DNA of 64,000 bases from assembly GCA_950106755.1 (NCBI GenBank), contig OX467091.1, forward strand, positions 28,289,538 to 28,353,537. Reading direction: 5' to 3'. A program made the position numbers and the translations under genes. The notes below the pieces were generated by a model, which saw nothing but the letters and a program-made list of their open reading frames with translations, ran no database searches and was not told the DNA's origin. Below are positions 21,489 to 56,114 of the stretch, piece after piece; positions within the stretch are counted from its first letter, which is position 1; every line of letters begins with the position of its first letter. Source of the DNA: Climacium dendroides (Eukaryota > Streptophyta > Bryopsida > Hypnales > Climaciaceae).

Positions 21489-22548
21489 TCAGATGCCCCA
21501 ACTGGGAGTTGAAACAACAGTACAAAACGATCCACTGTGTTTTTGTTTCTTCAACCTCCTTTGTTCCAACGGAACCTGTGGACGTGGAATGGACTGCCCA
21601 CGAGCAATAACTGCAACCGATTCTCGAAGCGAACTATTTGGAAACTTGAAATTCTCTTCCACTATGGATGTTGGATAATTCGCGTCTCCATAAAGCTCAC
21701 GCCCATCACACAATAGTTTAGGGTCATCTCGGACCATCACCCATGTATTGTTATAGAACATCATTACCGAGCAGTCCTAAATGTATAATGTATGAATCCC
21801 TAGTATTGACGGAAGACTATCACTTATAAATTCCCAACATGTACTTCTTTGTAGACTGCCACTCTACAATATGAACACATAATATGAACAAGTATTATAT
21901 GTGTGATTTACATTGCTGTAACTCCCTTGCCTTGAGAATCTCAGGCCCCCGACTGTATCCTGTATTTGGCTTCTTATACTCATTCCATCGTTGATGCCTC
22001 TGTCGTTGTAAGAACATGCGGTTCGATGCGTCGAGATGACGAGCATCACTTTGAATTCTCTGCACCCCATCATGTGTCTTAGACATCCGGACGTTCCCTG
22101 ACAGGACATACTTGGGACGGCGCCTTGCACTATCACAAGCAGCTCCGATATGAGTATCACGAGATCCACCAGTATCATGAGATCCACGAGAGATCCCTGA
22201 CTTGTTCCCTAGTGCAGCAATTTGTGTTGTGGCCTCGTCATAAAGCTTCTTTTTTGGCGCCATGTCTGATGCCACCGGCGATAACTGAGAAGTAAGTGGC
22301 CCCCCGCAGCGCAAAGGAGAAGGTGAGCAGGACTTTGGCAGACGTGGGCCGTTATTAGGCGGACTATCCACCACACCATCATCCACGGGCTTAGTAGAAT
22401 AGTCCATTGTGGAGTTTGCTGTTGCCGCCGAGCATAGAAAGTTCCCCCTGCTCAGGATTGCATACTGTCCATAGTCCAATATAGAATCCGCCGATGCAAC
22501 GCACGAAAGGTGATCATCTCCATCAGTTGAATTCCATACGTCCAGATT
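21489..22548 (-). CDS. Unrecognised two-exon gene segment ('D'), unit 1
   Basis: Two open segments on the minus strand: about 22548-21914 (acceptor CTTCTAG, donor GTAAAT) and 21776-21489 (acceptor TTAG). The first is Pro/Ser-rich, then basic (MAPKKKLYDEATTQIAALG, SARRRPKYVL, QRQRHQRWNEYKKPNTGYSR), ending GPEILKARELQ. A similar GYSRRKEILKARE string reappears further down at about 21410, suggesting a repeated short motif. No known domain seen. It lies between the palindrome sites at 22671/22773 and the foldback block, and may be the 3' part of the A1 transcript or a separate gene. Confidence 0.4.
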
Positions 22549-22839
22549 CTAGAAGCAAATCATATTTATATCATGACCACGAAATAGAACTGCATAGCAT
22601 TGAGAACATGAAACACCATCCACAAACAAACCTAGAACGTGAATCAATCACACCATCCAAACAACTAGGAAGCTCCAATCGAGCTGATTTGAGACACGAG
22701 CATTAAACCATGACTATTTTATTAGAGGCATAAGGATTGAAATTACAAATCTCCAGAAAGCAGGCTTAAGTCAGTTTGACTCGAGCTAAATTAGACCAGA
22801 GCATGGAAATCGAGAACCTATGCCTCCCTTAGTGTAGTC

Positions 22840-24060
22840 CTAATGAATGTAGGAAGATGCCTGCACGACCTCCATCAACTTATCGTACTCCCTCTTCTGT
22901 TTTCTATCGTCACAGAGCATGCGGCGACCAATTCGATTGGCCGCATTTTCTCAGAAGGACTTAAGTCCCTCTTCACGAGCCACGTGAAGATTTTGGAACC
23001 AAGGGAGCAGGACATCCAGGAGGAAAGTGTCCTTCACACCGTTACCTCTGTATGACCATGACTCCGGTAAAATGGCGTTCTCAGCATTGTTAAGAATGTG
23101 CTTCATGGGACTGTCATCCACTATCACGGTATTTTGGGACGAGAACCTCCCCCGGTAGCTAGTGAACAAGGTCTCCAAGTTTTTAAGGAAGAGTTCCTTA
23201 TTTGTGCTTGGCTCCTTGAATGTTGTAATTCTGGAGTTTTTTTCCCTACATTTCAGAGTTATACAAGAGGTCTGTCCTAGTTTGACTACCAACAAGTCGA
23301 GCCCCTTAAAGAGATAGGCGGACACTTCATCAGTGGTGGAAGTCTTCATACTGCTCCACACTGAAATTGTAGCTATCTCTCCTAACACACGTAAGAAATC
23401 AGAACACCCGGGACGGACATACATTAGCTTTGGCCCCACAACTACTGGCTCAGTAGCAGAGTGCGATTGGAATGCGTCCCCAGTCTATTTGGTCCAGCCC
23501 TTATACTTGTGATCTTCATAGACGCACAATACCCCATTGAGGTCCAGGATGACGTTGATCCACTTGTCCACAACCCTGGACTCCAATGGAAGATTGACCA
23601 CCTCCGTAAGTCTTGGAAGATCACGTGGAGGATCAGATTCCTGATAAACAATGGACGAATGTGGAGCTAGTTATTATCCTGTATTCATAGCCTCTGGACA
23701 TCGCGCTAATTGAAATAGTCGTTCAGATTTGTAGACGTCACTAAACAAACACAGAATTCAGAATGTAAAATTCAAGACATACCTTCTGTTGCGAGGTCTC
23801 AACTGTCTCCGCAGTAACATCCCTTGTCCTAGCAATCGTCTCGGATATCATGACCTCGAGAAGATCGGCATCAGGTATGACACTGTCTTCAAGTAGAAGA
23901 GCGGCAGTATTCAAGGATTCAGACTTGTCCTCCGTAAAGGTGACATTCTGATCCGTCGGCTCATAGACAACATCAGGCACATGCTTCAATGAGGTCGGTT
24001 CGGAAGTGAATACACCTGATGCAACAATAGGTGGCAACAAATCTACAACATTGACAATGC
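22840..24060 (-). pseudogene. FCP1/NIF-like HAD phosphatase-fold domain, broken
   Basis: Exons 24060-23783 (donor GTATGT) and 23640-22840 (acceptor ATCAG) join in phase. The second encodes the FCP1-like HAD signature: motif I ILDLNGVLC near 23545, motif II SVWSSM, and motif III VIVDDSPMK near 23110. In motif I the second acidic residue of the usual DxDx(T/V) is Asn; some plant FCP1-like proteins have this, and it should weaken or abolish phosphatase activity. TAG at 23485 and TGA at 22951 interrupt the frame. The upstream exon needs a donor leaving one base, which the end of A1 can supply, so this may be the C-terminal part of A1 rather than a separate gene. Confidence 0.65.
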
Positions 24061-24300
24061 CTACAAGTCAAGAGTGTTCAAAGGAAGTGTTGTAAGGAAT
24101 CTGGGTATTACCGCTTTACATAAAAATGTTTTGATGTACATACACAATGTCTGAAAATTTTGAACTCCATGGTTCGGTCCACTAGAAATTCAGCTATGCC
24201 AAAATTGTTGAGTTGTCTATGAAATAACTCTAAAACTACATACAGCCCACGTCAAAAACTAGATCGAGTTGAGCTAAAACTGTACAAGAACACCGAGTGA

Positions 24301-27300
24301 TCATTGAGGTGCACTTGAGCTAGACTCTTGGCTAGGAGACGCGGTTGGCTGGTCGGGGGTGTCCACCACATCACCACTGCCTATCCCTAGAGGAACAAGT
24401 GCACACTGCGCCTCCACAAGTACCGGTGGCGCAACCGTGGGTGATGGTGGAGGAGGTGGTGTCCTAGGCGGTGGATGCGAGGGTGGTGTAGTGACCGCGA
24501 ACTCTGACGGGCCTACCTGACCTGAAGGTGGGGCTGAAGATGACACTGATGGCTGGTTTTCAAGCCTCAGTTGAGGTGCCGCAGGCTGGACCTCGGCCAT
24601 GGGCCTCCCACCCTTCATCCACAAAATCAAGGCATCTAACTTGTCGTTAGCTTCCTTGGAATCTTGCAACATGAACGTCTGCATGCTATCTAGCCTCTTG
24701 TTCATCTGCTATTGCTGCAGGATGTTCTCCGCCCGATCTTGGAGCCGCTTCTCCTCGATCTCAGCAAACCTCCTCTCGAGGATGTCATCCACAAGTGAAG
24801 TCTTCCTTCTCTTCCGCAGATGGGTGGACGACGGAGTTGACGACAGTTGCGTCTCAATTGCGTCTCTAGTTGACGCAGAGGAGCCACGATGCTCTGTTGG
24901 TGTTGCACGAACAGGCGATGAAGGAGGATCGGGCATTTCATCTTGTTGGCAATCCTCTACGTCGTCATTGGAGCTGGAGATCACTTCAAGCTCCTCGATA
25001 GGTCTCTTGTTCCGACGACCAGTGGATGGAGAATCCCACGGGGCCCTCCGCATTGTCTTCGCGGGCGAAGGTGTCGAATGAGACTCCCGCTGCCTACTTG
25101 ACTTAGGCTCCTCCATTCTATAGCCCGACTCCAGAAAGTCGGCCCTGTCAAGCAACATGGCCGTGGTGACAATGTCGTTCCAGAAGGAGGTGTCCTCTTT
25201 AACTCCAACTGCGAACACATTCACGGAACTCATCTGCGGTGATAGAATCGAGCGTTTATCATCAGTAAACTATCATATTAGCTCGAGTGGAGCTGAATCA
25301 ATGGACAATTAAGCTCGATTTGAGCTGAAGTGACACTCATAGTGAGGGAAGAAGGCGTACCACCGCAGCGCATGTGAACTTCCCTCCGGCGAAGACCGAG
25401 AATACACTGTCACCAGCCTTGCAGAAGGACTTCACCACCCACAAGTAGAATTCCATGTAAAGCTCTACGTTGTATAGGCGGAATAATTCCAGTTCATTGT
25501 ACCCGCGCGGCGTGTTGAAAACCGGTGTGTTCGGAGCCCAAAATGCATTCGGGATTTTGACGTCCGTGTAGTATTTGGGTTTGAATAAGAACATGAGCAG
25601 GATCTTGGCATGGGACTTCGCCTTCGTAGACGACATGTCGCCCAGACGCTCGTAGTCCCCGGGCATGTAGTCCACATACTTGCACCTGAACTTGTGCAAC
25701 TCCTCGTGGTTCTGCACAAACGCCGTTACTTACGTCTGCTCCACTACATCCGCACAGATGAAAAGCCAGACTGGGACCTCCTCCAGCAGGGGCTTGCGCT
25801 TCCCCATCAACGACAACATGACGGTGTTGAAGTAGGGAATCGCGATTGTGCCCTTCTGCTTGGACAACACTCCCAGAATCAAACGAAAGTCAATGACCCC
25901 CACTTTCAGATCAGCCGGGGTGTCTACAGTCCACACAACGGTTGGCCATGCCGTGTGTTTGTCATCCTTGATGTTGTATGGCGCATAGTACGCCACTGCT
26001 GATGGCGAGACGAAATTCTTTCTCTCTTTCAGAAAGACCTTGAAGAACTCAGCAGCGTGCTTAGAAATTTCTTCTGTGGACTTATTCTTGGACTTCAACT
26101 GCTTAATCTCCGAAAAGAACTCCTTTCCAAGCCTTTCGAGGAGAACATTCATTGTGGCCGAGGTGACGAAATGTTTGGACTTAAACTCCTTCCATTTCTC
26201 CCGCACGACCTCATTGTCCGCGTTCAGGAGTCCAAGTGATGGGTCAATTTTGTTCAACTCCTTCACGAATTGTTTTTGTTTGCGCCTCTCAATCCAAGCA
26301 CTCGATGAGTAGCAACTTTCCAAAACTGACGATGACTGCTTGATCGTCACTTTCGGATGAGGCTGCTTTCTTTTGTCGCCAAACTTATTCAAAATATGGT
26401 TGGCGAGCTTCTTCAGGTCCTCGTATGTGAGATTCTCGAAGAATTTGAAATACTCCTTATTGAGCATTCCGTTCTCCGTTTTCCATGAAGGCTTGGCATT
26501 GAACTTCTTGAGCGTGTCTGGGTCAACGAGCTCGCCATGTGCCGCATTGGAGATGACCTCACTCCAGAGGTTGAAGACTTCGTCTGGTGCTGTGATAATT
26601 TTTACCTCGTTGGTTATCACCAGACTATTTTTTGCGTCTTTTCCTTTAGCCTTGGTCTGACCCTTGGCGACGTCGATCATGGAAAACCGCATCTGCATGG
26701 CCTTCAGGAATTCCTGCAACGAATTGTCACATTCTCTGACAATTAATGAATGAGCTCGACTGGAGCTGAACTACTACGGGGTTTTGAGGGAGGGACATAT
26801 TCCAGTGCAAATTGAGCTCAAGTCGAGGTGAATGCTTACCGCGTATTTCATCTTATTGATGTGCACCTCCTTGGACCGCCGGGAGCTTGTAACAGATCCA
26901 GAGGAAGTGTCATCCTTGGGGTTCCGCGGTTTCCCCATCTCCTCCCAGACCTTCCGTGCCCCCAGAATGTTCGTGGCCCACGATGGCTAGATTGCTTGAA
27001 AGTGGTTCACGCGGTTGTAATACGTTGAAATGGATTGCAGAATTTCAGCGTCCTCGGTCCACATAATGTAGCAACTCCATACTCGGTAGTCGTTGACGAT
27101 CTCGGGCGCGACATTGTACTTGGGGTCTTGCATTAGTTTGCTTGCCCACACACTGTGCTGTCCGTTTATTATGTAGAAATCGCCGTCCTTGATTTCTTCC
27201 CACGAATCATCACCGTCTCTTGTGGGCTTGTTCACGGGCATTACGCAGAGGGTCTGGCGATTGCTGTGGTCTGGCATATTTACGAGCCAATGCATCATGT

Positions 27301-28282
27301 CTTCGACGATGCGATCCTCTTTGCTTCGGATGTTCAGCGTGGCTGGTGCCTGAATAAGTTTGTCGATGGGAAGGGTCTTCTTGTCCATCTTGTACAAGAA
27401 TACGTCCGTGCAAGCAGTCCAGAACCTCTTATAGGCCTTGTTGGACTCTTCGTAGGCCGGCTTCCTGTTTACCCGCAAGGACTCGAGAATGTCACTGAAG
27501 TCGCAGGCGATGTCGTCAACGTCGGACTGATCTCCCGATTTCTCCATGGACTTCTGTTGGGAGGAAGAGGCAAGGTTACTGGTTTGCCTTTGTTGTCTCC
27601 TAGGATCAGCAGGCTTTTTGTTTCGTTGCCCCCTCCTCTATGTATCTGCAGGAGGTTGCTTGTTAGTGGAGATTTGACTCCCTTCTTGGCTCTCCACATT
27701 CAGGGACACGGTACGGGCCGTTTTGCTTTCCCGCTCTATGGTTATTTTCGTTTTTAGACAAGCAAAGTCTTGGAACATTTGCCTGACCTTCCTACATAGT
27801 TTGTGGCCTGATATTGGATCTCCGTTTTCTTTCAAGAAGACCCTCTCATTCACCTTCTCCTCAAGCTCCCTCATGTGGTCCTGAAAAGACGTAGTTTCAA
27901 GACTCTGGATGAGATTTGTCACGCGGAATGGTATTTTCTCGGAGTTGAAGTGGATGGTGAAGTTGTATTGATCTTTGGCGGGGACACCCAAGACAGCTAT
28001 TTGACAGTGAATTTTAATCGTTGGCAGAATGTCTTCCACCACGTCCTTCACTTGCACTTCGTAGGACAGCGGGAGGAAGCAGCTCATCCCCTTGTATTTC
28101 ATGCAGAAGGCAATGAGCTCTATATAGGGGATCATGGTAAGGCTCCAGCACTCGACCCCCTCGAGGTAAGTAAATTCCCAGTACTCCCCGTCGTCTAGAA
28201 AGTCGTCCCCGTCATCTTCACTAACCTTCAAGACTTCTGTCCTTGTGAAGTATTATTGCAGCTTCTCAACTTGGCTATCCAT
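24301..28282 (-). pseudogene. Gene A1: large unit-1 protein with NGQHS motif
   Basis: Exons 28282-26840, 26713-25361 and 25233-24301 join without frameshift (about 1240 codons). Exon 1: an unknown N-terminal region, then at residues ~355-390 'FYIINGQHSVWASKLM', a pattern recalling the G-x-HR core of ParB/sulfiredoxin-like folds (inference). Exon 2: a Lys-rich region homologous to A2 (RFSMIDV, ITAPDEVFNLWSEVI, AHGELV). Exon 3: Ser/Pro-rich, basic NKRP and RKRRK patches, a coiled coil (DDILERRFAEIEEKRLQDRA) and a Pro-rich tail. Five in-frame stops, all TAA or TAG: 28253, 27638, 26987, 25730, 24709. At 26987 the paralogue A2 has CAG. Each intron contains the unit-1 palindrome. Start chosen by alignment of MDSQVEKL with MEDQVEAL of A2. 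Confidence 0.6.
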
Positions 28283-28323
28283 CTGCATATTGTAGTGTGT
28301 TCAGCATGTTAGTTTATTCATTT

Positions 28324-29237
28324 AGCTCGATTCGAGCTTATAGCTTTAGTTCAGTTATCGCTGCATTTCCTTCTATATGGGATTCAATGTCTATTCGTTT
28401 TGCTACATGTTGACTATCTGTCATTCTTTTGTTAATCCTCTCATTTTCGCAAGTATGTTTAAGTCATTGATGTTTTCAAGAGCTCGAGTCGAGCTTCTTG
28501 GTTCGCTGTTTTTCTCACCATTGAGTGTCCGACTTCTTAGGTATGGATTTAGATTTGTTTCATTATCTAGTTGTGTAGTGCTATATTGATAGCGGGAGAG
28601 CTCGAATCGAACTCTTAGGTTGCGGTTTCTGGTATCATTACGCTTCTGTTGTCATTTTTGCGTGGTTGGTTTTCTGTTGTTGTGAGAGGCATTATGATGT
28701 GTCAAGCTTTATTGTGTATTGATCTCGATTTGAGCTGATTGTCTAGTTTTGTCTGATCATTGCACGTCTTAAAATTTTTGTGATATCGATTTCTTAACGT
28801 TTTAGTTTTTTATTATTTTTGACAGGGACTTTTAGGCTTTGTGGACTTGTCAATGTCATGTTCTTAGTCTTTATATTAAAGTTAATCTTCTTGACTTTTG
28901 TAGACGCTTGTGTGGTTTTGACATATTTTTTCTTTATCATTATTTTCATTTTTAATGACATTGAGTTCTTTTAGCTCGATTCGAGCTAATTTAGTTTTGC
29001 TGTTAAATGTGTCTTAGGTTATTCGTTACATTGTTGTTGTTTTAGTCGGTTTGACAATAACATTACTCTGGATTGATGGACCTTCCTGTTTAAAATCAGC
29101 TTGATTCGAGCTGAGTACAGTGGGATTTATCATTGTCTGGAGAGTCGTTCCTTTTGGTTATGAGTGCATTTACTGTACTTTACTTCTTTCTTGCTGTTGT
29201 TGAGGCCCGAAAACCAAGATTTTGCTCGAGTCGAGCT
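28324..29237. promoter_or_regulatory. Palindrome cluster, unit 1, 5' of A1
   Basis: About seven copies of the 15-bp palindrome AGCTCGANTCGAGCT, at 28324, 28481, 28599 (variant), 28722 (variant), 28973, 29098 and 29223; weaker halves near 29268 and 29313. Perfect copies are 28324, 28481 and 28973. They start about 40 bp upstream of the A1 ATG and are spaced 118-251 bp apart. Further copies lie in A1/HAD introns: 26753, 26815, 25280, 25312, 24261, 22773, 22671. Variants mostly change CpG to TpG or CpA. They look like protein-binding sites. Confidence 0.7.
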
Positions 29238-29344
29238 GGTTGGGTGGTTCTACTTGGTACATATTCAGCTCGAACCCATCTGATTAACGGGATTGCATTT
29301 TCGACATTCAGTGCTGTTCGAGCTGAATTTGCATGTGACTGTCG

Positions 29345-31280
29345 CTAAAACTAACCCTATAGTTGACCTTGACCAGAATGTTATCAACAGACCCTAAGAA
29401 CTCCTAAGCGAACCCTACTAAAACCCTACTCAAACCGTAACACAGACCTTGCTAACCTCTTTAAACCCATGATAAAAAAATGATTCAACCTCCACTAGAT
29501 GCAAAACAAATGAAATAGGCATTATACCACTGAGAAATAAGTCGATGAAGAAGAACCACCGAATGCAGAACTAGTACCACGGAATTAAATTAACAGAAGC
29601 AGAGTCCCACCAAATTGTCCCAAATCCGCAATACTGAACCAGATTAACTGCACCTGCATGGTCAAATGTGCAAACAAGTTTAGGCTGCTACAGGTGACAT
29701 CATATGCAATTCAAATACTTCGTCAATTGCATACGGAATAAGAACACTACGAACCTAAAGCCATTCATACTAAAAAATAAAACACAGAAATTCAAAAACA
29801 TGAAAACTCAATCCAATACATGTAGGACAATAAACCAAGTGACTTAATTCAAGTAGCACACAAAACCATTAACTTTGCACCTTCTGGGTCTAAATTTCCC
29901 TCCCTAAAGATTCCTGTGAAAAATTGCTATAACATTTGAGTTTGAAGATGTTCTGAGTACCAGTATCAAACCCAATGTGCCTAGCCTATTCCTAGGAGCT
30001 TGACAAATTGACGATTCCTGACAAGAGCCTCAAGTGCTGGAAGAGCCAACAAAAGAGAGGCCTCATGTACAAATAGAGAATACTTTTGATTATGAACTAT
30101 GAACGTGGACTATGTAAACCAAGACCAATGCACGTAGCACAACAAGTACAAGCTTGTACAAATAATACTATCACACACTACAATTGCCAAATCCACTTAC
30201 ATCCCGCTAAGAACCAAACTACACCAAACGAATTGTCACTGAAGCAAACTCCATATCGCAGTTGACATACCCGCTAACATACCAAAAAATTGTCACTGAA
30301 TACCAATTGACATACCAGCTGAAAACCAAATATCGCAATTGACATACCAGTTGAAAACCAAAATTGACAAATCGCAGGAAGCAAGACTCACGTCTCCACA
30401 ACAAAATGCATAAGATCGACAGTAACTTACAAGAAAATTGTCACCTCCTGGACTCTTCGAGTTCCCGTTTCCGTTCCAGTGTTGCAGCCACCAAATTCGA
30501 TATTGAAAACCCTGAAATGTCACTTGAGCACGCTCTGAATCCGGAACAGGAGTTGCAGGTTGTTGTTTGCCGCGGCCGCGTACTCCAGAAGCGCACTCGA
30601 GCTAGCCTTACCGCGTGCTCCAGAAGCGTAGTGGCACTCACAAGAAGGATACCTTCAAATTCCAATGGAGCACGTTCTAAAAACCCTAGCAGCTACAGGT
30701 TTTTGTCTGCCTTGCCGCGTGCTCCAAAAGTGCACTCAGAGGAAGATAGAAACAACTCAAGCTAATACAATGCACTCACTTCCAATTTCCGCGCACTCCC
30801 CAAAAAATACAATGTACTCACAAGAATATAGAACACACTCACACAATCACACGGCAATCACACGGCGTAGCAACACAAACACGATCACACGGCGATCACA
30901 CAACGCAGCAACACAAACAAAAAAACACAGAATGCGAAGGAGGGCGCCAAAACGCACTCTCACAAAGACGATCACACGGCGCAGCAATAGGGAATGACAA
31001 AAAAACACGGAATGCGAAGGAGGGCGTCAAACCCTAACCCCAATGCCGACTTCTGCTAATACCCGACACTGTTGATACCTGACCCCCTCTAGTACCCGAC
31101 TCCTTCTGGTACCCTAATCCAACCCACTTCTGGTACCCTATCCCAACCCGTTGCTTGATAACCAACCTCCCGCTCATACCCGACCCCCTCTTACCCGACC
31201 CCTCCTGGTGCTTGAACCGAGTCCAGACCAGGTCCCTTTATAACAACTACATTAATGACTATAAATACTAGTATGTTGTC
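29345..31280. other. Spacer of unit 1, left part
   Basis: No supported gene. Contains several AACCCTA-type short repeats near 29350-29440, repeated GCGTGCTCCAGAAG blocks at 30580-30730 that create chance open frames, a CACACGGC/AACACAAACA repeat zone at 30830-30990, and a degenerate tandem of ACCCGACCCCCTCTGGTACC-like units at 31060-31215. Confidence 0.45.
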
Positions 31281-31287
31281 ATTACTC

Positions 31288-31498
31288 TAATGATAATAAA
31301 TAGTGTTACCTATATTAATTTATTTAGAAAAGCCATAAGTTTTCATTCTTGATGAATATTTTTACCAACTATGGATGTAGAGTTTTCCCACTTAGAATGA
31401 TACTAGGAGTTATGGTTTTCGTAAAAATATTTATGAAGAGTAAAAACTTATAGCATTTCTAAAACAATTAGTATGGATAACACTATTTATCATCATTA
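31288..31498. repeat. Foldback (MITE-like) element
   Basis: The arm 31288-31366 (TAATGATAATAAATAGTGTT...) is matched in reverse complement by 31422-31498 with few differences over nearly 80 bp. The loop is about 55 bp. No coding capacity. Confidence 0.75.
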
Positions 31499-31689
31499 GT
31501 GTAGTGTTACCTGGACCTTTCTTTTGCATTCTAAACTTCGATTAGTTACCATTTTTCATTGTATTCACTTTTTTGACCAATAACCTTTTTGAGCATGTCA
31601 TACGCTTTTTGGATTATACGTTTTCTTTTGCATTTTGATGAAACAATAAACTAATAGTAAATGGAAACTTGTAAAAAGATTTATACCCA

Positions 31690-32244
31690 ATAAATCAATA
31701 CACTTGTGAAGATTTTAATTCTAAGAATGTCATTATAATAATAAATGATGGATTATAATGTTTCCTTACTAAAACAAGCCCCAACTAAGTAATTCCAATT
31801 TTATCAGAATTTGTGATATTATAGGAATACAATAGGCAGGCCATATTCATTAATATGAGACAATGAGTAGTCTCAATTTTATCTTCAACTCGAAGATAGA
31901 TCGTCATAACTCTTCAATTTTGAGACTACTTGATAATTAGAGACTTTCATATATTAATATATATAAAAACCTTTATATTCAAAGGTTGCACTCTCATTTT
32001 ATCTTCGACTCGAGGATAAAATCACTGTAATTGTTATAGGGTTGAAGTCTCAAAATGACCATTTCGTCTCATTTTAACAAATATGGCCTTTAGCTTGTAC
32101 AATATCACATCTTTAAATCTTGGGAAATTACAAAAACATTATGGTAAATGAAAAGAGTTCAAATTCGAAAGTAAAATAGATTGATATAGGAGAATTGGCA
32201 TTTCAAAATTTAGAATTGAAATCTTCACAAGTGTATTGATTTAT
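31690..32244. repeat. 555-bp foldback element
   Basis: The ends match almost perfectly in inverted orientation (ATAAATCAATACACTTGTGA at 31690 and its complement ending at 32244, 34 of 35 positions). Inner parts also pair: GGCCATATT..ATGAGAC at 31839 with its complement ending at 32088. Arms of about 250 bp are interrupted by small differences. A non-autonomous hairpin transposon is the best explanation. Confidence 0.75.
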
Positions 32245-32339
32245 TGTATGTATACATATAATATGTGGATGAAGTTTGAAGCCAAAATAAACAATTAGCA
32301 TGCCACCTTTCTAATGTCATTGTATTAATCCACTCTAAT

Positions 32340-35520: not shown

Positions 35521-35548
35521 AGTTATTCCGGAAAATCCGGGGAGATTT

Positions 35549-40305: not shown

Positions 40306-40356
40306 GATTTTCAAGTTTTTGAGATTTTCAGGTTTTTGAGATTTTCAGGTTCTTGA
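40306..40356 (-). repeat. 17-bp triplication inside A2
   Basis: GAGATTTTCA(A/G)GTTTTT occurs three times in tandem. Since 34 extra bases are not a multiple of three, the KNLKISKT coding segment runs into a stop. A1 has only one such unit. Confidence 0.75.
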
Positions 40357-40513
40357 CAACGTCAATCATAGAAAATCTAACTGTCATGGCCCTCTCAAAT
40401 ACCTGACACACAATTAGACAAATTTAATTAGAAGCAACGACGTAGCTCATCAAAGATCAATCACGTAGCATGCATTTTGGACAGGGCTGGAATTCTATTA
40501 GTCGACGAGGCAG

Positions 40514-40534
40514 TTTAGCGCGACTCGCGCTGAA
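40514..40534. promoter_or_regulatory. Unit-2 palindrome inside A2
   Basis: One near-perfect copy of the 21-bp unit-2 palindrome (half-site TTTAGCGCGA, mirrored around one central base) between the two recognisable coding blocks of A2. The equivalent place in A1 is an intron carrying the unit-1 palindrome, so position within the gene is conserved although the sequence differs. Confidence 0.65.
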
Positions 40535-42142
40535 GTGCTGAACTGAAATCGCTCGCGCTTCTTCTTGTTCTCTACAGTCTGTTGTACTTGAGACGCGGTT
40601 CCAACAGACTTGGTAGGCTTTGGATTTTCGGGCCTACCCATATCCTTCCACACTTGACGAGCCCCGAGGATGTTGCTCGCCTAAGATGGCTGCACAACGA
40701 TGAAGTGGTTTGTGTGGTTGTAGTAGGCAGAAATGCATCTGAACTTCTCCGCGTTCTCCGACCACACAATGAAGCAATTCCACTTCTAGAAGTGCTTGCG
40801 CTCGATTTTGTCGATGTTGTTGGAGTCATTAAACATGAACTTGCTTGCCTCTACACTATGCTGCCCGTTTATTATGCAGAAATTGCCGGCTGCAATTTCT
40901 TCCCACGTCTCCGGCTTCTTAGTGCAGCCCACGGGCATGACGTAGAGCGTTTGTTTCGTGCTCTTGTCAGGAATGTTGAGGAGGTAGTTGACCATGTCCT
41001 CAACAATGTTATCCTACTTCGACCGGATGTTATAGGTCGCAGGAGCCTCCACGAGCTGAGAGATGTCAATCTCTCGCTTGTCACCAACACCAAAGACGTA
41101 AGCGTCTTCACAGTTGTCCAAAATTGCTTGTAGACCTGGCTGACGTGCTTATAGTTAGGTCTTCTCAGCGTCGCTCGGGAGTGAGGCAAGTTTGCCATCT
41201 CCTCAGCGTAACATCCTTCGGGAACTTTGAAGACTGCAAGCTCGGTTGCTGTTGCTGTCTCTTTCTGAAGAGGATCAGTCCCTTTTTTTCCTTTTCGCTG
41301 TTGAGGCTTTGAAGGTTGTGCTTGAGTTTTCCTCTGACCTCGACTTGTCTCTGAGTCCTGCTTCACGATTACCTTAGAGGTCTGGCTGATGCTTTGCTGT
41401 ACCATTTCTCTTGTGACCGATCGGGGCTTGCTATACTCTTGTTGCATGGAGAGCTTCCCCTTCAACGTATTGAAGTTGTTGAACAGCTGGCGGATTTTTG
41501 TGCACAGCCTCTTCCAGGTTAGGGGAGTGTCGTTTGCATTCTTCCACTCGTTGTTGTCAAGCTTCTTCTCCAGCTCTATGATCTCGGCGGCGTATGAAGT
41601 AGGCTGGAGGCTTTCCAGGAAGTGGCTGAGGTTGAATGGGATGAGGACCGAGTTGATGCAGATGGCAAAGTGGTATTGCCTGCTCGCTCCCGGCACAGCG
41701 GATATGCATTGCACTTTGATCATGGGATGCGCGTCCACTGCGACATCTTTGATCATTTGTTGATAGGAGAGTTGGAGGGCGCATGCTACGTTTTGAAACT
41801 TGTAGCTGAAGCAGATCATGTTTGTCATTGGTATCATGCATATGCTCCAACACTCTACTTCTTCAGGCTCTTTGAACTTCCAGTGCTCGCCTTCGACTAC
41901 GCTCTCGTCCGCATTGGGATCATCATCCGCGCACTGCACTTCACATCTTTTGAAGTACATTTCAAGGGCTTCGACTTGGTCCTCCATTCTGCCAAAACAA
42001 TGTTACGGTGTTTCATGTTAGAACACTGATATGTATTAATTGGGATCTCTAGCGCAGATTTCTATTCATATTTGAATTTTGACTCTTTTGCCTAGCTCAC
42101 GCTGAATCAAAGCATGATGACTCGCATATTGGCAGGAAATAC

Positions 42143-42680
42143 TTTAGCGCGACTCGCGCTGAAGTTGAATTGGTTTAGAAAGGATTTGATATGAATCACT
42201 GGTAGGAACTGATTAGCGCGAGTTACGCTAAAGTGGAGGTCTTACACTGTCATTATGTTGGAATATACTTTAGCGCGAGTCGCGCTAAAGATGAATTGGG
42301 TCAAAGGAGATTTCAGACAAGCATCGTTAGGAGTGATTTAGCACGAGTCACGCTAACTCAGAGAACCTATGCTAGATCGAAGGACTGATACTTTCTTGTC
42401 GGATGATTATACTTTAGCGCGACTCGCGCTAAAGTTGAGCTGGTTGTTCTAATTATCTACGTTTTGTATTTTTTTGTTCTGGGCAGGAGTTTTTTAGGAA
42501 CAGGATGTTGTTTAAGCATTATTTAACACGACTCACGCTAAAATGGATATGTATTTTATGACTATGTCTTGTGAGTATCAGGTGCTATGTTATTATTGAA
42601 TGGGATGTATAGGACACTTGAGTGGCAGGCTTAGCTTTATAAATTTCTGGATATACCATTTTAGCGCGAGCCGTGCTAAA
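42143..42680. promoter_or_regulatory. Palindrome cluster, unit 2, 5' of A2
   Basis: Seven copies of a 21-bp palindrome made of TTTAGCGCGA, one variable base, and the reverse complement. Starts: 42143, 42212, 42269, 42337, 42413, 42522, 42660; spacing 57-138 bp. 42269 and 42413 are perfect. Others differ at CpG positions, for example TTTAGCACGAGTCACGCTAA at 42337. The first lies about 155 bp upstream of the A2 ATG. Confidence 0.75.
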
Positions 42681-42749
42681 ATGGCCGATTAACGTTTTAT
42701 TTAGTCATGACTTTATTTTTAGGATTTCAGGTTATAAAAAATAGGGTTC

Positions 42750-44060
42750 AGGATTTTAGAACTACCAACAGCAACAGGAACAGCAAACAGCAAGAGCAAC
42801 AACAACAACGACCAACAACAAACACATGTATTAAACCTAAAACCCTAAACCACGAACATCATTCGCTTCATTGTTACCAGATCATGACTAATTTTGGATT
42901 TGCTTCAATGGAAGATGACTAAGCAAGCAATAAGCAACCAAGCAAGTCATGGATGAAACATTCAAGCAAGCATGCAAGCAAGTCAAGGAAGAAGCATTCA
43001 AGCAAGCAAGAAAATTCGAAATTTATTGACCACGTACCTAAAAAATAGCAACAGGTACCTCGCAGACAACAGGTGCAGTTCAAAGTCATACCTCGCAACT
43101 CAAGTGGCTCTGTCCACACGAGAATCCCCTCATTGAAATTCCAATTATACGAACAAAGAACAGAATAAAATCGCACCACAAAATCCTTGAAATTCAATCA
43201 CACGAAAACAAAACCCTAATACAGCATAGCATCTAATATGAATCTCATCAAGCAAGGAACCGGCAACTTGTGAAATTAGCACTGTCCCAAGCTCTCTGGC
43301 AATTTCTAGCAGCTTGAATTTAGGTAAAAAACGCGTGAAAAAAGATTGGCAAAGTACCTGTTGAAACGAGGAATTTTGATTTTGTGCCTCCCACTTCGCA
43401 ACTCAAGTGTCTCACAGACAGCAGGTGCAGCTCAAGTGTAGCCCGCACTAGTTCGCACCAAGCACCAAGCACTTTGATGCAAGCAGCAAGCAACTCAGAC
43501 AACAAAGCACCTCGCACCTTGCACCTTAGACAACAAAGCAACTTAGACAACAGAGCACCTCGCAGCAAGCACCAAGCAACTCAGACGGCAGCAGGTGCAA
43601 CTCAGCACCTCGCACCTCGTACAGCGCAACTCAGACAACAGGTGCACCCTAAACCTCGCACCTCGCACCGCAACAGCAGGTGCAACCCTTAACCGAGCAC
43701 CTCGTACCAAGCACAAAGTATAAAGCATCTCGCACCAAGCACCAAGCAATCTGCACCTCGCACAGCAGGTGCAACCCTAAACCTCGCATTGAGCACGAAG
43801 TACGAAGTACCTTGCACCAAGCAGCAAGCAATCCGCACCTTGCACCAAGCAATCCGCACCTTGGACCAAACAATCCGCACCTCGCACCTCGCACAACAGG
43901 TGCAACCCTAAACCTTGCACCTCGCAACAAGCACCAAGCACCAAACAATCCGCAATCCGCACCAAGCAATCCGCACCTAGCACCTCGCAATTTCAAATTT
44001 TGAGCATTCCTCACAGCTCTCTCGCCGCGCTCCTCTGCTGCAGCCCAGGCGGCCAACAAA
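42750..44060. repeat. Low-complexity minisatellite tracts
   Basis: CAA/CAG-rich at 42765-42825, AAGC repeats at 42920-43010, and a long degenerate array of CACCTCGCACCAAGCA-type units at 43400-43990. The Cys-rich open frames on the minus strand (for example 43649-44059) come only from translation of this array and are not called as genes. Confidence 0.75.
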
Positions 44061-44940
44061 CCTCTCTACAATGAACTTCACACGAAACCTCAACGAAGAA
44101 ACTAAAAAAAAGCCAAACCAACAAAACTAATAAAGCTAGCAACAAATGCGCTGACCCTCCCCCCGCACAGCGAAAGGAGGGTGACAACCGACCGGGGCTA
44201 CACCAAGCCTCCAACTAGGGTTGGTATTAGGTTTAGACTTAGGTTCAGGTAAACGTTCGACTGCCGAGGCCATAGAGTCGGGAACCAAGTCCACAGGGTC
44301 AACAACCGAGGCCGTAGGGTTGGACGTTGGTGCTACAAGTTTCTTTTCCATTTTTGAAGAAGTGCCATATTGGCAATATAAAAAATGATATTGGTTTTCC
44401 AAATTGCAACATTCATCCATTTAAGGGAGCCAACCCATTTTGACCACTTAAACCCTTTGGACTATTTGCACGGCTGATTTTTTCAAAACTTTCATTTCTA
44501 CAAGTTTCGAAAGAGGCATTACAATGTAGGCATAATTTTTTAGATGTTTTTTTGCAACATAAAATTATTGAGAATTTTAGTGGAAAATGGGCTTGCTTCT
44601 ATTCTGATGATATAGCCCATTATCTTTCCAACAATTTTGATTGCAATATTGAGACTCTCCTAAGCCAATTATATAGTGCGACAACTGCATAGAAAGTTGT
44701 GCCATATGTAATTGCTGCAAATTTTTTGTGCACAGTCAAAAAGGCAATGGTCTATACTACCAGAATGGGATGTCGGTTATAAATGGGTTGCCTCTTGTAT
44801 TGGATGTATGGTATGGTTTTCATCCACAATTGGGCAATTTCATCTAATATATTTTTATATTTCAAAGTTGTCTAGCAATTTCATCCACTTTTTCTAGCAT
44901 TTTTTATAATCTTTTTTAGGGCAATCCTTCCTTTTCATAA
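44061..44940. other. Spacer of unit 2, no gene seen
   Basis: A stretch with AACAAAACTAATAAAGC and a GC-rich patch, then AT-rich sequence. Nothing recognisable. Confidence 0.4.
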
Positions 44941-44946
44941 ATCATA

Positions 44947-45386
44947 ACAATCTTGCCCACTTAGAAGTTGAACTTTGCATGAATAAAAAAAAAATGGAAA
45001 TAGAATGGGCCCTCCCCTTGAATGGTCCAAATCCTTCAAATGTCTTGCAATAATTAAAAAAGAATGCTCAAATAAATTTCAAACAACTTGAAATTCGTGC
45101 TACACATTGGATTCCACATTAATTTTCAATGCTAGCCCATTTAGGAGTTAATTTACATGTGAAAAGGAAGGATTGCCAAGGATATGCCCGTTGTACCTTA
45201 AAGGTTCAAAATTAAAAAGGTCATGGAATTTTGTAAGTGATTGCTCAAATTTTGATCAAGCAAGTTGTAAATAGTGGTACAAGCGACATCGTGCGTTCAT
45301 TTTCAATCTTGCCCACTTAGAAATTGAACTTTGCATGAATAAAAAAAAAATGGGAATAGAATGGGCCCTCCCCTTGAATGGTCCAT
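44947..45386. repeat. Two direct copies of a ~75-bp repeat
   Basis: The block from TTGCCCACTTAGAAGTTGAA to GGGCCCTCCCCTTGAATGGTCC is present at about 44953-45031 and 45309-45386. A related inverted version occurs at about 47935-48010 (GGGCCCATTTCATTCCCGAT ... GTTGAATTTCTATGTGGGCA). Confidence 0.7.
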
Positions 45387-45419
45387 TCTATTCAAATCAT
45401 GGCCTTATGGGATGAATTC

Positions 45420-46310
45420 ATAAAATGGTAAATAAAATATATATTAGTACAAGTTATGAATTAGATGAACTTTAAGATTTTATAATAAAAAAACACTACT
45501 AGTGCTTCTTTTATACATTTTTGCAAGCAAAAATAATATGTAATTCAATAACTCATGTGCTGTAGTATAGAAATACTAAAGTCCAGAAACCATGATGTAT
45601 ATGAAAATAATCAAACGCAAAAGACATGTACAAGTTGCATACTAATTGAACATTTAGATTTCATGATAAAACATTATTGATGGTCATTTCATTCATTTTA
45701 ACATGCAAAAGAATTCTAATTGAATAAGTCATGCGCTGTAGTTTGCAAATAATGAAGCCCAAGAACCATGACATATATGAAAATAATAAATAAACGAAAT
45801 ACATGTACAAGTTGCATACCAGATGAACATCTAGATTTCATGATAAAACAATATTAAAGGTCCTTTTATGCATTTTGACATGCAAAAGAATTCTAATTGA
45901 ATAAATCATGTGCTGTAGTTTACAAATAATAAAGTCGAAAAGCCATGACATATATGAAAATAATAAAAACCAAAATACATGTACAAGTTGCATACCAGAT
46001 GAACATCTAGATTTCATGATAAAACAATATTAAAGGTCCTTTTATGCATTTTGACATGCATGAAAATAATAAAAACCAAAATACATGTACAAGTTGCATA
46101 CCAGATGAACATCTAGATTTCATGATAAAACAATATTAAAGGTCCTTTTATGCATTTTTACATGCAAAAGAACTTCTAATTGAATAACTCATGTGTTGTA
46201 GTTTACAAATAATAAAGTCGAAAAGCCATGACATATATGAAAATAATAAAAACCAAAATACATGTACAAGTTGCATACTAAATGAGCAATTTAGATTTCA
46301 TAATAAAATG
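45420..46310. repeat. Tandem array, ~176-bp monomers (about 5 units)
   Basis: ACATGTACAAGTTGCATA recurs at about 45627, 45802, 45979, 46082 and 46260. The intervals are 175, 177, 103 and 178 bp, so one unit is shortened. Units share ATCTAGATTTCATGATAAAA and AGGTCCTTTTATGCATTTTG. It has no visible similarity to the 172-bp array of unit 1 but occupies the equivalent place. Confidence 0.85.
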
Positions 46311-47169
46311 AAACTAATGTTTCTTCTAGGCACTTGGAGACATGCCAAAACAAATTAATTGCAATAAATGGTACTAAGAGACTTCGAATTTTTATCCATA
46401 TGAAATTGTAGTTCCATTTCGAATAATTAAAAGGTATGAAAGAAAAATATATTACAATCTACAAATTTATATTTATTGGGTTGAATTCAAAGAATCTTGT
46501 TACAAATCTTGAACCCAAATTTAAAATTAGGAACATTCCAATTCATTTTATTGATTAAAAAATTGTTGAGAAGAATTTATTACATTGGTCCACCGATCCA
46601 CGATGCCAACACTAGCTCTAAGCGTTATTACAAGTATATGGTATATGAGTCTGGAAAGCTATAAAAAAAGGTTTTGCATGCAAGCACATAAATATGATGC
46701 AAGTTGTAAACGTTTTGAATTCTCAAATTCCGTGGATTGAGCGTTCAGACGTCCAACTCATTTTTGAAGAAGTAAATAAAATCTTAAAATTTTAATGTAC
46801 TACAGATGCCTTTCAAATTTTGGCTACTTTCTATGGATAACTAAGAAAATAACTTACATGATTGGTGGCACATTTCAAATAATTATAGTGCTAGTGCCTT
46901 CATGATTGAATGGCACTTGCAAGTGTGAATTACCATAATGTAAGCTTATAATTCATAATTGAGAGTGTGATGTGAATGCATGGTGGACTCCACCATGATG
47001 GGTTTTCCAACTTAATCATTTCAATAATTACTGTTCTTCACTTCAAGAGATGACCTCACCTTTTGCCACTTCCAAAGTTCATTGTATGTGTCAATCACCC
47101 AAATTTTCAGTTAAAAATGATTTTTTAGTCATGTGTTTATGTTTAAAAAAGTTGAAAAGTCCGTCATAT

Positions 47170-47398
47170 TACTATAAGAAAACCTTGTTTTAGGTGACGG
47201 ATTGACATCAAAAGGAACGGATTTTAGGTGACATCAAAGGTGACATCAAAAAAACAAACCCATGTTTTTATGTCAACAATGATGTCCATTGATGTTATAT
47301 TGGACATCATTGTTGACATAAAAACATGGGTTTGTTTTTTTCAATGTCACCTAAAATCCGTTCCTTTTGACATCAATAAATTTTGGTTTCTTATAGTG
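47170..47398. mobile_element. CACTA-type hairpin MITE, 229 bp
   Basis: The right end is the complement of CACTATAAGAAACC; the left end is TACTATAAGAAAACC, one C-to-T change from it. The 3-bp TAT is repeated at 47167-47169 and 47399-47401, the target duplication size of CACTA elements. Nearly the whole length folds back, including a long almost perfect stem around 47250-47330. The apparent reading frame 47228-47440 lies in this hairpin and is not a gene. Confidence 0.85.
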
Positions 47399-47401
47399 TA
47401 T

Positions 47402-50285
47402 AGGATCTTCATACACCATAATTATTATTTAGTGCAATAGAAAAGTCCTCTGCAAAGGGTGTTCATGATTCCATTGTACATGCAAAAAAATATACAATTA
47501 CATAATTTTTAACATGAGTACCGAATGCATCTTTCATTTTATGTGCTTATCTTTCTACATTCTTATGTGGAATATAAAAATTCACGTAGTACATTGTAAA
47601 AAAACAAAAAATTATTTTATTTATTGTATGTGTACTTTGTTTTCAATATAATGCCTAGCACTAATTTGAATATAATGCCCACAACTAATTTGAACTTCCT
47701 TAATGAAAATTTTGAGCATTCACGTTAAAAATTTCATGACATTTTAAATTTTGGACATCTTCAGTCCAACGGCTATGAAACTTCTTTTGTTACGTGTACA
47801 TGATTTATTAAATGGGCAAGCATTGAAAATTTGCTTGGAATCCAATGCATAACTTTAGTTACAGTAATTTTAACTTGCTTCAAAGTTATTTGATTATTGA
47901 CGTAACAAATTGCAAGACATTTTCAAATTTGGGCTTTGAAAGGGCCGGGCCCATTTCATTCCCGATTTTTTTTATTCATGTAAAGTTGAATTTCTATGTG
48001 GGCACAAATCGGACATTATTCTAGAATATAATGCCCAGTAGCCACTAATTTTAACTTAATGAAAATGTGAGCATTCAGGTTAAAAATTTCATAAGAATGT
48101 CAATTCTGTATGTAAACACCTAATCCTTAAATTTAATTCTATGATTTCCAACAAGATTCCTAAACTCCAATAAATATAAATTCAGAATTTGTACCGTAAA
48201 ATTTTATTTACTTATCTTCCTCAATTTTGTATGTGAATGCTCATTTTCAACATCCTTAATTTCATCTTTGTGAATGATAAAACCGTGAATCTGGATTCTT
48301 TGCAGTAAATTCATGCTACTTTTATAGAAGTAGGTCTTGTACCATTATAGATTTCCTAAACCTTTTTATGATTGTTTCCTACTTTTTGAGCACGATTGCT
48401 TGATTTAGAAGTTTCAATTTGAATTTGATAACTTTGTATGCAAACAAGTTTACTATGGTTGCCTTTTGATTTCATAGGTAAGTTTAACATTTGTTAAAAT
48501 GAATCTAAAAATTATTTTTTAAGGACACAATTGAAGTAGTAGTTGATTTGTTTTTAATGATTGAAGTAGAAGTTGATGAAAATGAGGCATACAATTAAAT
48601 TTCATAGAGAATCATAAGATAAGAACATTTGTTAGTATGAGTTGTATTTTCATAAATACAAAACTTGAAAGTATTTGACATATATTACAGTCAAAGAGTA
48701 CAAAGGAAGTAGAAATTTTAAATTATATAACATTTATCATTATGTAACATTTATAATTTGTACCAGAACATGGGTCTACTATTCCTTGAACAAACACATT
48801 TTGCCTATTATTTCAAAATAATGCTATTGTTATTTTAAAGAAATACATATTTTTATGGATTTACCCCTCCAAAAACAACTTAGAACGTAATGAATAAGTT
48901 TGGTCTTCAATGTAACATTGAATTGTATTCGTCTACACGTATGCCCTTAAAACTCCCTAAGCAATTATTTAAATTTTTTGGCATCTATTCAATTTGGTAC
49001 GTCAAAAGAATTAGCTTAGTGCCGTGGATTTCACATGACATACCCTCAAGCTTGAAACCTGAAACCCTAAACCCTAAAAACCCTAATATCCTAAAACCTC
49101 AATGTGAACTTCGTGAAATGTAAACTCTATTTAAGTATCTATTTATTAAGTATCTAAACTTTTAGAAGCGGAAACCTGAAATGCCGTGAGTGTAAAGTGG
49201 AATTGGAGTTTAATTCCATGGACTCCATGTAGAATACTATTTTGAGGCGGTCAATATTTATTGAATTAAAAACGAGAAGGAATTTCCCCAATTGCAGTCA
49301 CTATAGAAGGAGAAGAATGTACCAACTTTAGAAACAGTTGCCTGAGGGCATCTTCTTTGGCGAATAAAGTTGTCAGTCCAAATGACCCTTGACCATTTTT
49401 ATCGAAGTGCGGAAAAGGCTAAAGGAATACAATAAGGCTACAAATAATAACTCCACTTGTCGTTCGTGACAGTCTCCCATTCGCAAGAAGACACGTCACC
49501 ATATGAAAGTCAACGAGCAATAAAAACTTATTTCTTAAAAGGCTGCTGAATCCGTAACATCCGTGAGGAATTTGATTCATTCCTCTTTTAGGGTGCACCT
49601 GTAAGATTCCACCTGCAAAGGCATGAGGAATCCCGGAGCACCAGAAATTAGAAACATGACGTTCAAATTGTTGGATTGGGTTGGCGCTTGTTTGTTCGCG
49701 CCAACAATTTGGGTTGCATCACTGAACTGCATGCACGTCCTTCCTCTTTTACCATTCTCTTCAATCGAATCGTCGCATGTTTGTTGTTTGCACTCTTTGT
49801 GTGCACCTCGTTCACTTGCAGTGCTCTCCTTCGTGTCATGTTTTGGAGTCCCAATTCGTGAACGCTTGCGTCTGTTTGGTTGTTATCTGCTGTTGTCATA
49901 GCTCAAGTACTTCAAGATGAAACCTTGCCGTTAACGTACTTCTCCCTTCTACATCAGTTTTGCATACTTCCATTCTGAACGTGAACGCTTGTCAGGATAC
50001 ATTCCGTCAAATGCTTCAGAAGCACACTTGATTGCGCAGGTCTTCATTTTTCCTAGATCGCATTTCACATTGCAGCAATTGTACTTGAATTTCATTTGCA
50101 ACCATTGTGCTTGAATATCATTTCGCAAGGTCTCTCCATCGTGCATGTCTAATGCTGTTCGTTATTGGTTCCGTGAATTCCGAAATTACTAAAAATAGTA
50201 GTTTTGAGTTTAGCTTAGAAGTATGTATGGATTTCGATAAATACGGGATGTTCAGATGAATCATCACCGAAGTTATGACTAGCAG
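47402..50285. other. AT-rich spacer of unit 2, no gene seen
   Basis: No supported gene over about 2.9 kb. Two to three AAACCCTAA-like telomere-type units lie at 49060-49090. Overlapping frames at 49623-49901 on both strands have no domain. Confidence 0.45.
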
Positions 50286-50779
50286 TTTAGTGTGACTTGT
50301 GCTAAATTACGTTTCTGAAATCTCATACATAGTTTAGCGCGTGCCGCGCTAATGTATATTTTTGTTTTCTAATTCTAGACCATGGGATATGAAGTATAGA
50401 ATAGTCGCACTATAGTTCAGCGCGACTCGCGCTAAAGTGGGTTTCTGTATGATAAGCCTAAGCAAGGTAATTGATTTACGGAGTAACCCAACTATATTTC
50501 AGCGCGAGTCGCGCTAAAGTATGTTTAGGAAAAGTCCGTGAATTTCAGCGTGAGTCGCGCTAAGATATTCCGTTTGATAATCCTGAATGGGGGATCGATA
50601 TTCATTTTAGCGCGAGTCGCGCTAAAGTTTGCTCCCCTTTGGTCAATCTGAATTAGAGGATAGGCTTGGTCCACGGGATTCATGTACAGGGTAACTTAAT
50701 TGCATTTTAACTTAAGCCTAGACAGTACAGATTACAAACAATTACACGGATGAACAACTTTAGCGTGAATCGCGCTAAA
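50286..50779. promoter_or_regulatory. Palindrome cluster, unit 2, 5' of B2
   Basis: Seven copies of the 21-bp palindrome, starting at 50286, 50333, 50416, 50498, 50544, 50606 and 50759; 50606 is perfect. The copy at 50286 (TTTAGTGTGACTTGTGCTAA) equals the consensus with all four CpG cytosines on that strand changed to T. The cluster ends about 175 bp before the B2 start codon. Seven copies lie on each side of the spacer. Confidence 0.75.
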
Positions 50780-50954
50780 CCATGATTCATGAATGAATAG
50801 AATTATAGTTTTCTATTATAGCAAAAGGGACACTAATATTTGTTTCCATAGCACATTCACTTTAATAATGAAAATTTATGTTTTTATTTAAAATTACGCA
50901 CCTGAACTTTAGCACTTATTCTTGTTTGTGATTTGTTCTTGATTTACAGAGAAC

Positions 50955-52489
50955 ATGGCCTCAAATTTTATACTAGATGACATCGTTGATTCATCGGAAG
51001 ATGAGTTCTAGGCTCTTGAGAGTATGAATGTTGGTGTTCGAGAGTGTGAAGGGCTTCCTCGCTGAATGTGGAACACAAGGTGTGTTACCTTGTACAATGG
51101 CGATGGCGTGCTTGTTGGAGAAGGGACTTGTCATAGCGTGGACTCTCAACTCGTACTTGGTGCCAATGGACCACTTGGAGACACGCACGTGTCTGTACAC
51201 ATTTCAAAGTCACACTCTGAAGTGGACATTCCTCGAGAACGAGTGTACTCTTTGGTAGCTTGGCCAATTGAGCTCGTCCATTGTCGTGGGGCGAGTTTGA
51301 AGGATCATGAAGCAAGGGACCATTTCAATCGTTCCCGAGAAGCGCTCTTGAACCCTCCTTCTTCTAAATCGGCGAGGCCCTATTCCAATATCGTCAGAAA
51401 CCCGCCTCGTGAGACTGCATTGAAAACAAAGGAGTTTCTTACTCAGGGGTCGATTAATGTGGTGTCAAGCAAATTGTGCTGTAGTCAGAATTGCATTCAA
51501 CCGTTTCCTAGGGAGAAAATACGAGCCTTTCGAGAACCATGTATCGGAATTCAACTTTCAAGCATAGAGCCTTTATGAAGATGGACGTGCACAGGTAGAT
51601 CCATCGAGATGCACGCGGAAGGAGGATGGTAACAATTGAAGGAATAAATGTGTGTTTGCGTGCATGGATGCATATTGCGGGGGTCGCAGAGTCTATTTTC
51701 TATCGCTACCTCAATTACATGAAGGCTAATAAGGAAGCAAGGGATCACGGGAACATGGGATTGCTCAAGCCTCGAGAGTATACCGAACAAGCCACGGCTT
51801 CATTGAAGTGCATTCTCGACAAGGAAGTCGATCACATGCCACATCGCTCTCGAACGTTGAAGGAAGGTGACAAGGTGGTGTCGAAGATTTTGCCGGCTTC
51901 TTTTCAGTGGAAGGACCAGTTGAGGAAAGTCGATGAAGCTAATGTGGCTTTTGGATTGAAAGAGATCTCAACTTCAAACTTGAGCAAGATAAGGTCGTCA
52001 AAGTTCTCGGAGTATGATGTGAAGAAGCCTAGGGACAATTTTGCAAGATGTGCTACTTGTGACAAGTATAATGAGCTCGTGAAGGGCGCTATCTCGGGAT
52101 CTCATACCGCCTTGAAGTGGTCAAGGATGTTGGATAAGCATCTAGTCACAGCTCGTGCGCACAGAGATGTTTATTATATCAACCGGGATTGGTCGTTCAA
52201 GTTTCCGCATGAGTGCGTTACAATCATACATGACAAGATGGATCATGCCAAGACCGCTTCTCCCATCTTTTCGCACAAGAGTAAGAGCTTGACAGCTTGA
52301 TGAAGCTACCCGTTTTAGTGATGGATATGATTGCGCATGGTCATGGTGATGTGCGCTATGCGCATTATGGCTTAGAAGTCTTCACCCATGACTCCAACTA
52401 TACCATTGGTTCAATGGCAAAGTTGCGAGATCTGGAGTTGATGCCAAAGTCTTCTTCGCGAGAGTTCTTCAAGAATTCAAAGTCCACAA
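50955..52489 (+). pseudogene. Gene B2: interrupted paralogue of B1
   Basis: The ATG at 50955 opens MASNFILDDIVDSSEDEF, then TAG at 51009 and TGA at 51063 (B1 has Arg there). The DUF8039-like region (RCVTLYNGDGVLVGEGTCHS..LVAWPIELV), CCSQNC, the GINVCLRAWMHIAGV block, FARCATCDKYNEL and HDKMDHAKTASP all align with B1. Frame changes occur near 51535 and 52285, with TAG at 51596. The gene stops at 52489, where the LTR of Ty3 copy 3 begins, just before the DNxxGDNKN part. The missing 3' half may continue beyond the right edge of the window. Confidence 0.75.
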
Positions 52490-56062: not shown

Positions 56063-56114
56063 AACTGTGAGAGTCCCCGCGAACATCCTCATCTTTGTCT
56101 TGGGAATCCGACTC

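Follow-up and report, generated by a model that had tools for sequence, protein, structure and literature searches.

A stretch of 64,000 nucleotides from the moss Climacium dendroides (contig OX467091.1, positions 28,289,538 to 28,353,537), referred to here as the window, contains two units of a candidate two-gene mobile element. Both units follow one plan: a gene, A, running leftwards, a cluster of palindromes, a long spacer, a second cluster of palindromes and a gene, B, running rightwards. This layout had been predicted from the letters of the sequence and was confirmed by tblastn with uninterrupted moss relatives of the two proteins and by a palindrome scan. The named relatives of A and B are proteins of Physcomitrium patens and Ceratodon purpureus, which belong to two subclasses of Bryopsida, and from these the window is very likely nuclear DNA of a moss. 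All four A and B genes (A1 and B1 in unit 1, A2 and B2 in unit 2) are decayed. Re-assigned stop codons were rejected as the source of the in-frame stops, as the frames of the neighbouring Gypsy elements and PRP4 gene are long under the standard code and six relatives are uninterrupted.

Gene A1 (22852..28252, reverse strand) is spliced, with several exons, and was traced by tblastn with Physcomitrium and Ceratodon A proteins from about 28186 down to 22852; the intron limits given for A were read from the letters, guided by tblastn. It consists, in order, of an N-terminal region, a region with the motif NGQHS (about 27.6-26.9 kb), a middle region, a low-complexity linker and a C-terminal FCP1/NIF phosphatase-like exon, and its coding frame is interrupted by in-frame stops. 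The last exon carries the gene to 22852, beyond the A1 of the original prediction. Gene A2 (39790..42002, reverse strand; tblastn 41987 to 39796) is truncated after the middle region and shows frame breaks and one in-frame stop.

The FCP1/NIF domain of A1 lies at 22951..23484 on the reverse strand (Pfam PF03031, E 7.5e-14, 52.2 bits); two A proteins of Physcomitrium score 50.2 and 43.7 bits for the same family. The domain ends three of six A relatives (three of the five Physcomitrium proteins, 1,491-1,551 amino acids); the other two Physcomitrium proteins, which are shorter, lack it, as does the Ceratodon protein. The canonical catalytic motif of FCP1/NIF proteins is DxDx. In A it reads DLNG, which makes catalysis doubtful, and from its sequence the domain may be for binding rather than an enzyme domain. 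Scans of family libraries recognised no DNA-binding domain in A, and a predicted structure was set aside (predicted local distance difference test score, pLDDT, 36.5). Two further leads were rejected. A resemblance of the segment EFYLWLVRKFCRPGGSIFSLWGGGKITSAAM to a DNA-methyltransferase motif found no support in any family library. Of two scans of viral contigs the first was empty and the second gave a single locus at 29% identity; its contig also encodes a T4-like tail protein, and the matching open reading frame (ORF) has no Pfam hit.

Gene B encodes an intronless protein of ~940 amino acids. B1 (36218..39058, forward strand) is a full-length single exon with seven in-frame stops, matched by tblastn in one frame over 36248-39058. 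B2 (50955..52489, forward strand) has frame breaks, is matched to about 52488 and is cut by a long terminal repeat (LTR) retrotransposon. The DUF7869-like region expected in B was found: Pfam PF25273, whose curated cut-off is 26 bits, is matched by two pieces of B1, at 31.2 and 101.5 bits, and by the relative P0003 at 146.7 bits. At E<=1, Pfam gave DUF7869 only for P0003, P0010 and P0025. The DUF8039 also expected there had no hit in Pfam, and a MULE transposase domain was absent. A check for an RNase H fold had been proposed, and in the predicted structure of B the topology is indeed that of RNase H, with three acidic residues conserved. These two features suggest that B is probably a transposase of DDD type, in line with its earlier description as transposase-like. 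The protein has 152 distinct relatives, several of them in one species. A sequence search of solved structures with the A and B profiles gave nothing useful.

The earlier assignment of A1/A2 and B1/B2 as paralogues was upheld by direct comparison: the A genes are 66.8% identical over a 407-column piece of DNA (protein distance 0.585) and the B genes 69.9% over 1423 columns (protein distance 0.341). Synonymous sites are saturated between the paralogues, with proportions of synonymous differences (pS) of 0.76 for B and 0.81 for A; the corresponding non-synonymous values (pN) are lower, 0.20 and 0.38. This suggests a long period of purifying selection followed by decay, with A evolving faster than B.

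A scan for near-perfect palindromes without any preset motif gave many singletons and one recurrent family, 19-21 bp in length. Its consensus, TYAGCKCGANTCGMGCTRA, finds 24, 34 and 37 sites in the window at <=2, <=3 and <=4 mismatches, against means of 0, 0.1 and 1.3 in 40 dinucleotide shuffles. This comparison flatters the consensus, because it was built from the same sites, but the placement of the sites is independent of that. Eight sites at <=4 mismatches lie upstream of A1 (28322..29326) and seven upstream of B1 (35547..36141); in unit 2 there are seven upstream of A2 (42144..42679) and seven upstream of B2 (50287..50778). Two clusters per unit had been expected, but further sites lie within and behind A: two in the first intron of A1 (26751..26831), two in its short second intron (25278..25328), one in its presumed third intron (24259..24277, in a stretch that aligns to no relative), two just 3' of the gene (22669..22789) and one in an intron between the coding pieces of A2 (40515..40533). 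No site at <=4 mismatches was seen in the coding pieces, in either spacer between its clusters (29400..35500 in unit 1, 42720..50200 in unit 2), in 39059-39790 or in the outer 34 kb (1-22600 and 52490-64000). One site at 28597, found in other palindrome scans, falls below the consensus cut.

Each unit has its own version of the palindrome. The clusters of unit 1 read AGCTCGA-N-TCGAGCT, and those of unit 2, like its intronic site, AGCGCGA-N-TCGCGCT; the two differ in one symmetrical letter. Positions 6 and 14 are T and A in 19/19 unit-1 sites counted, a count that left out three weak sites (29265, 29308 and 35852), of which one fits T/A and two do not. In the 15 unit-2 sites position 6 is G (13) or A (2) and position 14 is C (13) or T (2); the A/T variants look like decay of CpG. 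The observed-to-expected CpG ratio upstream of A2 and B2 (42144-42679 and 50287-50778) is 1.24 and 1.33, compared with 0.64-0.95 in the other 11 stretches measured, and methylation could affect the CpG-rich palindromes of unit 2. Together with their flanks, the A2 and B2 clusters align when one of them is inverted (39 nt at 87%), and part of the A2 cluster reappears further along, at a distance of 125 bp (99 columns at 77%), which suggests that the palindromes have spread by duplication. The palindrome types also dispose of a convergent element made up of B1 and A2 with palindromes at its ends, as these two genes carry differing types.

The original prediction had asked whether A and B homologues keep company in other genomes, and this was tried in part. 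In Ceratodon one 25-Mb contig bears both genes under neighbouring locus tags (...3G000200 and ...3G000300). Elsewhere a shared contig was inferred from equal length: 3/25 distinct A-contig sizes (20 kb-2 Mb) equal one of 62 B-contig sizes, where the null mean is 0.002; each cluster is represented by its longest contig, and 120 of the 152 B matches are covered. A further shared short length, 3976, was left out because the sources differ. The other 22 A contigs equal none of the B contigs listed, which is no proof that the genes are separate there. Between two of the associated copies the divergence is 9.6% for A, over 291 columns, and 10.3% for B, over 476 columns, as if the genes had been passed on together. 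Distances in A and B correlate over six associated pairs (r 0.89, p 0.0014) and over five pairs (r 0.77, p 0.04), to which shared species history could contribute. A and B look linked and tend to occur together.

A spacer is present in both units as predicted, but at about 8.0 kb (28253-36217) and 9.0 kb (42003-50954) rather than 6-8 kb, and none of 83 ORFs of >=35 amino acids in spacer 1 matches spacer 2. Both contain tandem repeats of similar period (32363-33638, 173 bp; 45508-46060, 177 bp) that show no similarity in self-comparison. Spacer 1 also holds an element resembling a miniature inverted-repeat transposable element (MITE) at 31688-32246 (559 bp, with 37-nt arms 97% complementary). 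Two palindromes TATCTTC[AG]A-C-TCGA[AG]GATA lie in it, at 31880 and 32000, whose centre equals or almost equals the CGA-N-TCG of the A-B palindromes and whose outer letters differ; they are possibly a third code, on a non-autonomous element. In spacer 2, a hairpin of 41 bp, its arms complementary throughout, is nested inside a second inverted repeat (47201-47377), together forming a small fold-back element.

Neither limit originally proposed for the pair of units proved to be an element end: 21489 has no feature that marks one, and at 52490 a Gypsy LTR starts. That LTR belongs to what seem to be tandem Gypsy elements with a common LTR, inserted in B2 (52490-64000; repeat 52490-54524 / 61967-64000, 99.1% identical). 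On the left, a related Gypsy element at 11.9-20.0 kb stops abruptly at 19972, and a further Gypsy piece lies at 5.1-8.6 kb. The cut Gypsy on one flank of unit 1 and the cut A2 on the other imply rearrangement on both sides. A candidate pair of 15-bp terminal inverted repeats for unit 1 lies at 19986..20000 (forward) and 39699..39713 (reverse); a match as long was met in 6/400 random pairs of non-Gypsy stretches, and there is no target duplication at these repeats. Near the end of the A2 homology is a hairpin-like sequence (39793-39838), the outer part of which (39815-39834) resembles the left candidate repeat at 17/23 positions, counted by eye and suggestive only. Short repeats, some direct and some inverted, crowd together at 20368-21265, between A1 and the cut Gypsy; this is perhaps the subterminal region of unit 1. 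Further out, at 1558-3724, a PRP4-like splicing-factor gene with PRP4 and WD40 domains (Pfam) adjoins the transposon cluster and is a probable host gene.

The genes, their association, the placement of the sites and their unit-specific sequence are best read as two old copies of a large moss DNA transposon, in which B would be the transposase, A a reader of the element's own palindromes and anti-silencing the effect. To this reading as a whole we give an even chance. The predicted fold of B, with its putative DDD-type RNase H catalytic domain, and its many relatives suggest that it moves the element. A, changing faster and placed beside the putative transposase, would be the self-encoded accessory protein, binding the 19-21 bp palindromes at the A and B promoters, in the A introns and in the A 3' flank. 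The palindromic form of the sites suggests a dimeric binder, and through its FCP1-like domain A may be in contact with the transcription machinery. With many sites occupied, the non-coding control DNA would be kept open by removing or blocking host silencing, and this occupancy would drive expression of A and B. Every family would have a private form of the palindrome that only its own A reads, and relatives would not be woken. The mechanism is proposed with reference to PMC10398659.

The same transposon could use its palindromes for transposition itself, bound by B, or by A if it acts at subterminal repeats in the manner of TnpA. The TnpA sites of CACTA elements are subterminal, and the inverted match of the A2 and B2 clusters and their flanks is what subterminal repeats show. 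The sites, however, lie between divergent genes and in A introns, away from any recognised end, and the pairing of palindrome types, A1 with B1 and A2 with B2, places the spacer-flanking clusters inside the unit. This role for the sites is considered rather unlikely.

A special case of the anti-silencing reading, held to be doubtful to a similar degree, makes A a eukaryotic protein of ParB/Srx fold and the palindromes parS-like loading sites, from which spreading would displace silent chromatin as VirB does in bacteria. VirB belongs to the ParB family, and it is termed an anti-silencing DNA-binding protein in the abstract of PMC6410309. The palindromes are indeed clustered, as in ParB-parS and VirB systems, beside a protein with a GQH motif, which occurs, mostly as INGQHS, in 42/46 A proteins and fragments. 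One local alignment sets NGQHCVEASK of A on AGERRFRAAK of Spo0J, and a Pfam match to DUF6551 spans the GQH motif at E 0.06; neither is significant. The ParB likeness had first been proposed from the NGQH motif alone, and it gained no support from hidden Markov model scans or profile comparisons. In a set of 42 A proteins and fragments that included those of the window, neither Pfam nor NCBIfam showed a ParB, sulfiredoxin or DGQHR family, and a PHROGs scan found nothing below E 0.028. Neither YbdM nor a set of 80 Spo0J relatives was matched by the A profile better than controls, reversed or unrelated; for the Spo0J relatives hhalign gave P 0.47 and 0.63, where reversed controls gave 0.68 and 0.53. 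In contrast to ParB-parS systems, ParB homology of A is not detectable by family scans or profile comparison. The boldest form of the idea, a new class of moss selfish element in which a ParB-like A, fused to a polymerase-phosphatase-like domain, would load on parS-like palindromes across the element's promoters and introns, spread and evict silent chromatin, with code and reader co-evolving and each family unlocking only itself, is more doubtful still.

The palindromes might instead be sites of a host transcription factor, used as promoter and intronic enhancers, with another role for A, for example on RNA polymerase II via FCP1/NIF. The clusters are directly upstream of both genes, and the FCP1 family includes phosphatases of the polymerase II C-terminal domain. 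A fixed factor, however, gives no account of the symmetrical switch in 15/15 unit-2 sites, and such sites are absent from the rest of the 64 kb; this explanation is judged improbable. Least convincing, and very unlikely, is a local duplication of an immobile gene pair, host or domesticated: neither ends nor target duplications were found at these units, the Ceratodon pair is annotated side by side and the B counts may include repeated assemblies, but B has 152 distinct relatives, several in one species, and the features of a transposase fold, all four genes are decayed and saturation of synonymous sites between the paralogues goes beyond what local duplication would lead one to expect.

Among the best-ranked papers of the open-licence literature, no title or abstract start describes the putative anti-silencing transposon, and a Repbase entry is possible. 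B shares with DUF7869 proteins (PF25273) the domain itself, acidic motifs included, but that family is unnamed, and neither a paper on the name nor a description of its pairing with A was found in the open-licence literature; if the present reading is true, some DUF7869 proteins would gain a name and a partner gene. Fungal transposons (KDZ, ESTA and others) carry TET/JBP genes, according to PMC12730594, and likewise combine a transposase with an accessory gene whose presumed role is to counteract DNA methylation. They differ from the moss units, in which no dioxygenase was found and A has an FCP1/NIF-like domain instead.

CMCT transposases (CACTA, Lanisha and others) are described in PMC12730594 as having C(2)C and H(3-4)H between the second D and the last D/E; for Lanisha that paper cites Maumus, McDaniel and Carey (Repbase Reports 2020). 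The moss element would resemble Lanisha and CACTA-like elements as a cut-and-paste DNA transposon. Residues 553-594 of P0003, however, contain one C and two H and no C(2)C/H(3-4)H motif, so that B differs from these transposases as described, provided that D552 and D592/D594 form the catalytic pair. The three are authors of the Ceratodon genome, and Lanisha itself possibly comes from mosses.

The proposed mode of action is like that of the VANDAL elements of Arabidopsis, of the MULE group, in which self-specific transposon anti-silencing is known in detail. VANDALs have clusters of family-specific motifs in non-coding DNA, introns included, as set out in PMC5735166. The moss element shares with VANDAL/VANC a transposase with a further protein, and family-specific motifs that cluster in non-coding DNA, the introns of the accessory gene among it, and shift between families. 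In contrast, moss B has no MULE domain and moss A has no Pfam family in common with the known accessory proteins, the moss motif is a 19-21 bp palindrome where that of VANDAL is a short directional 9-mer, and the moss genes are divergent with a long spacer. By the features tested, the moss element appears distinct both from MULE/VANDAL and from CMCT/Lanisha, the latter as described in PMC12730594. The clean one-letter switch of the palindrome offers a ready test of binding specificity in Physcomitrium, a model plant with easy gene targeting. The best reading, by analogy, is that the moss element works like VANC/VANDAL anti-silencing with unrelated-looking proteins; if this is true, it would be a second, apparently independent system, and such codes would arise repeatedly.

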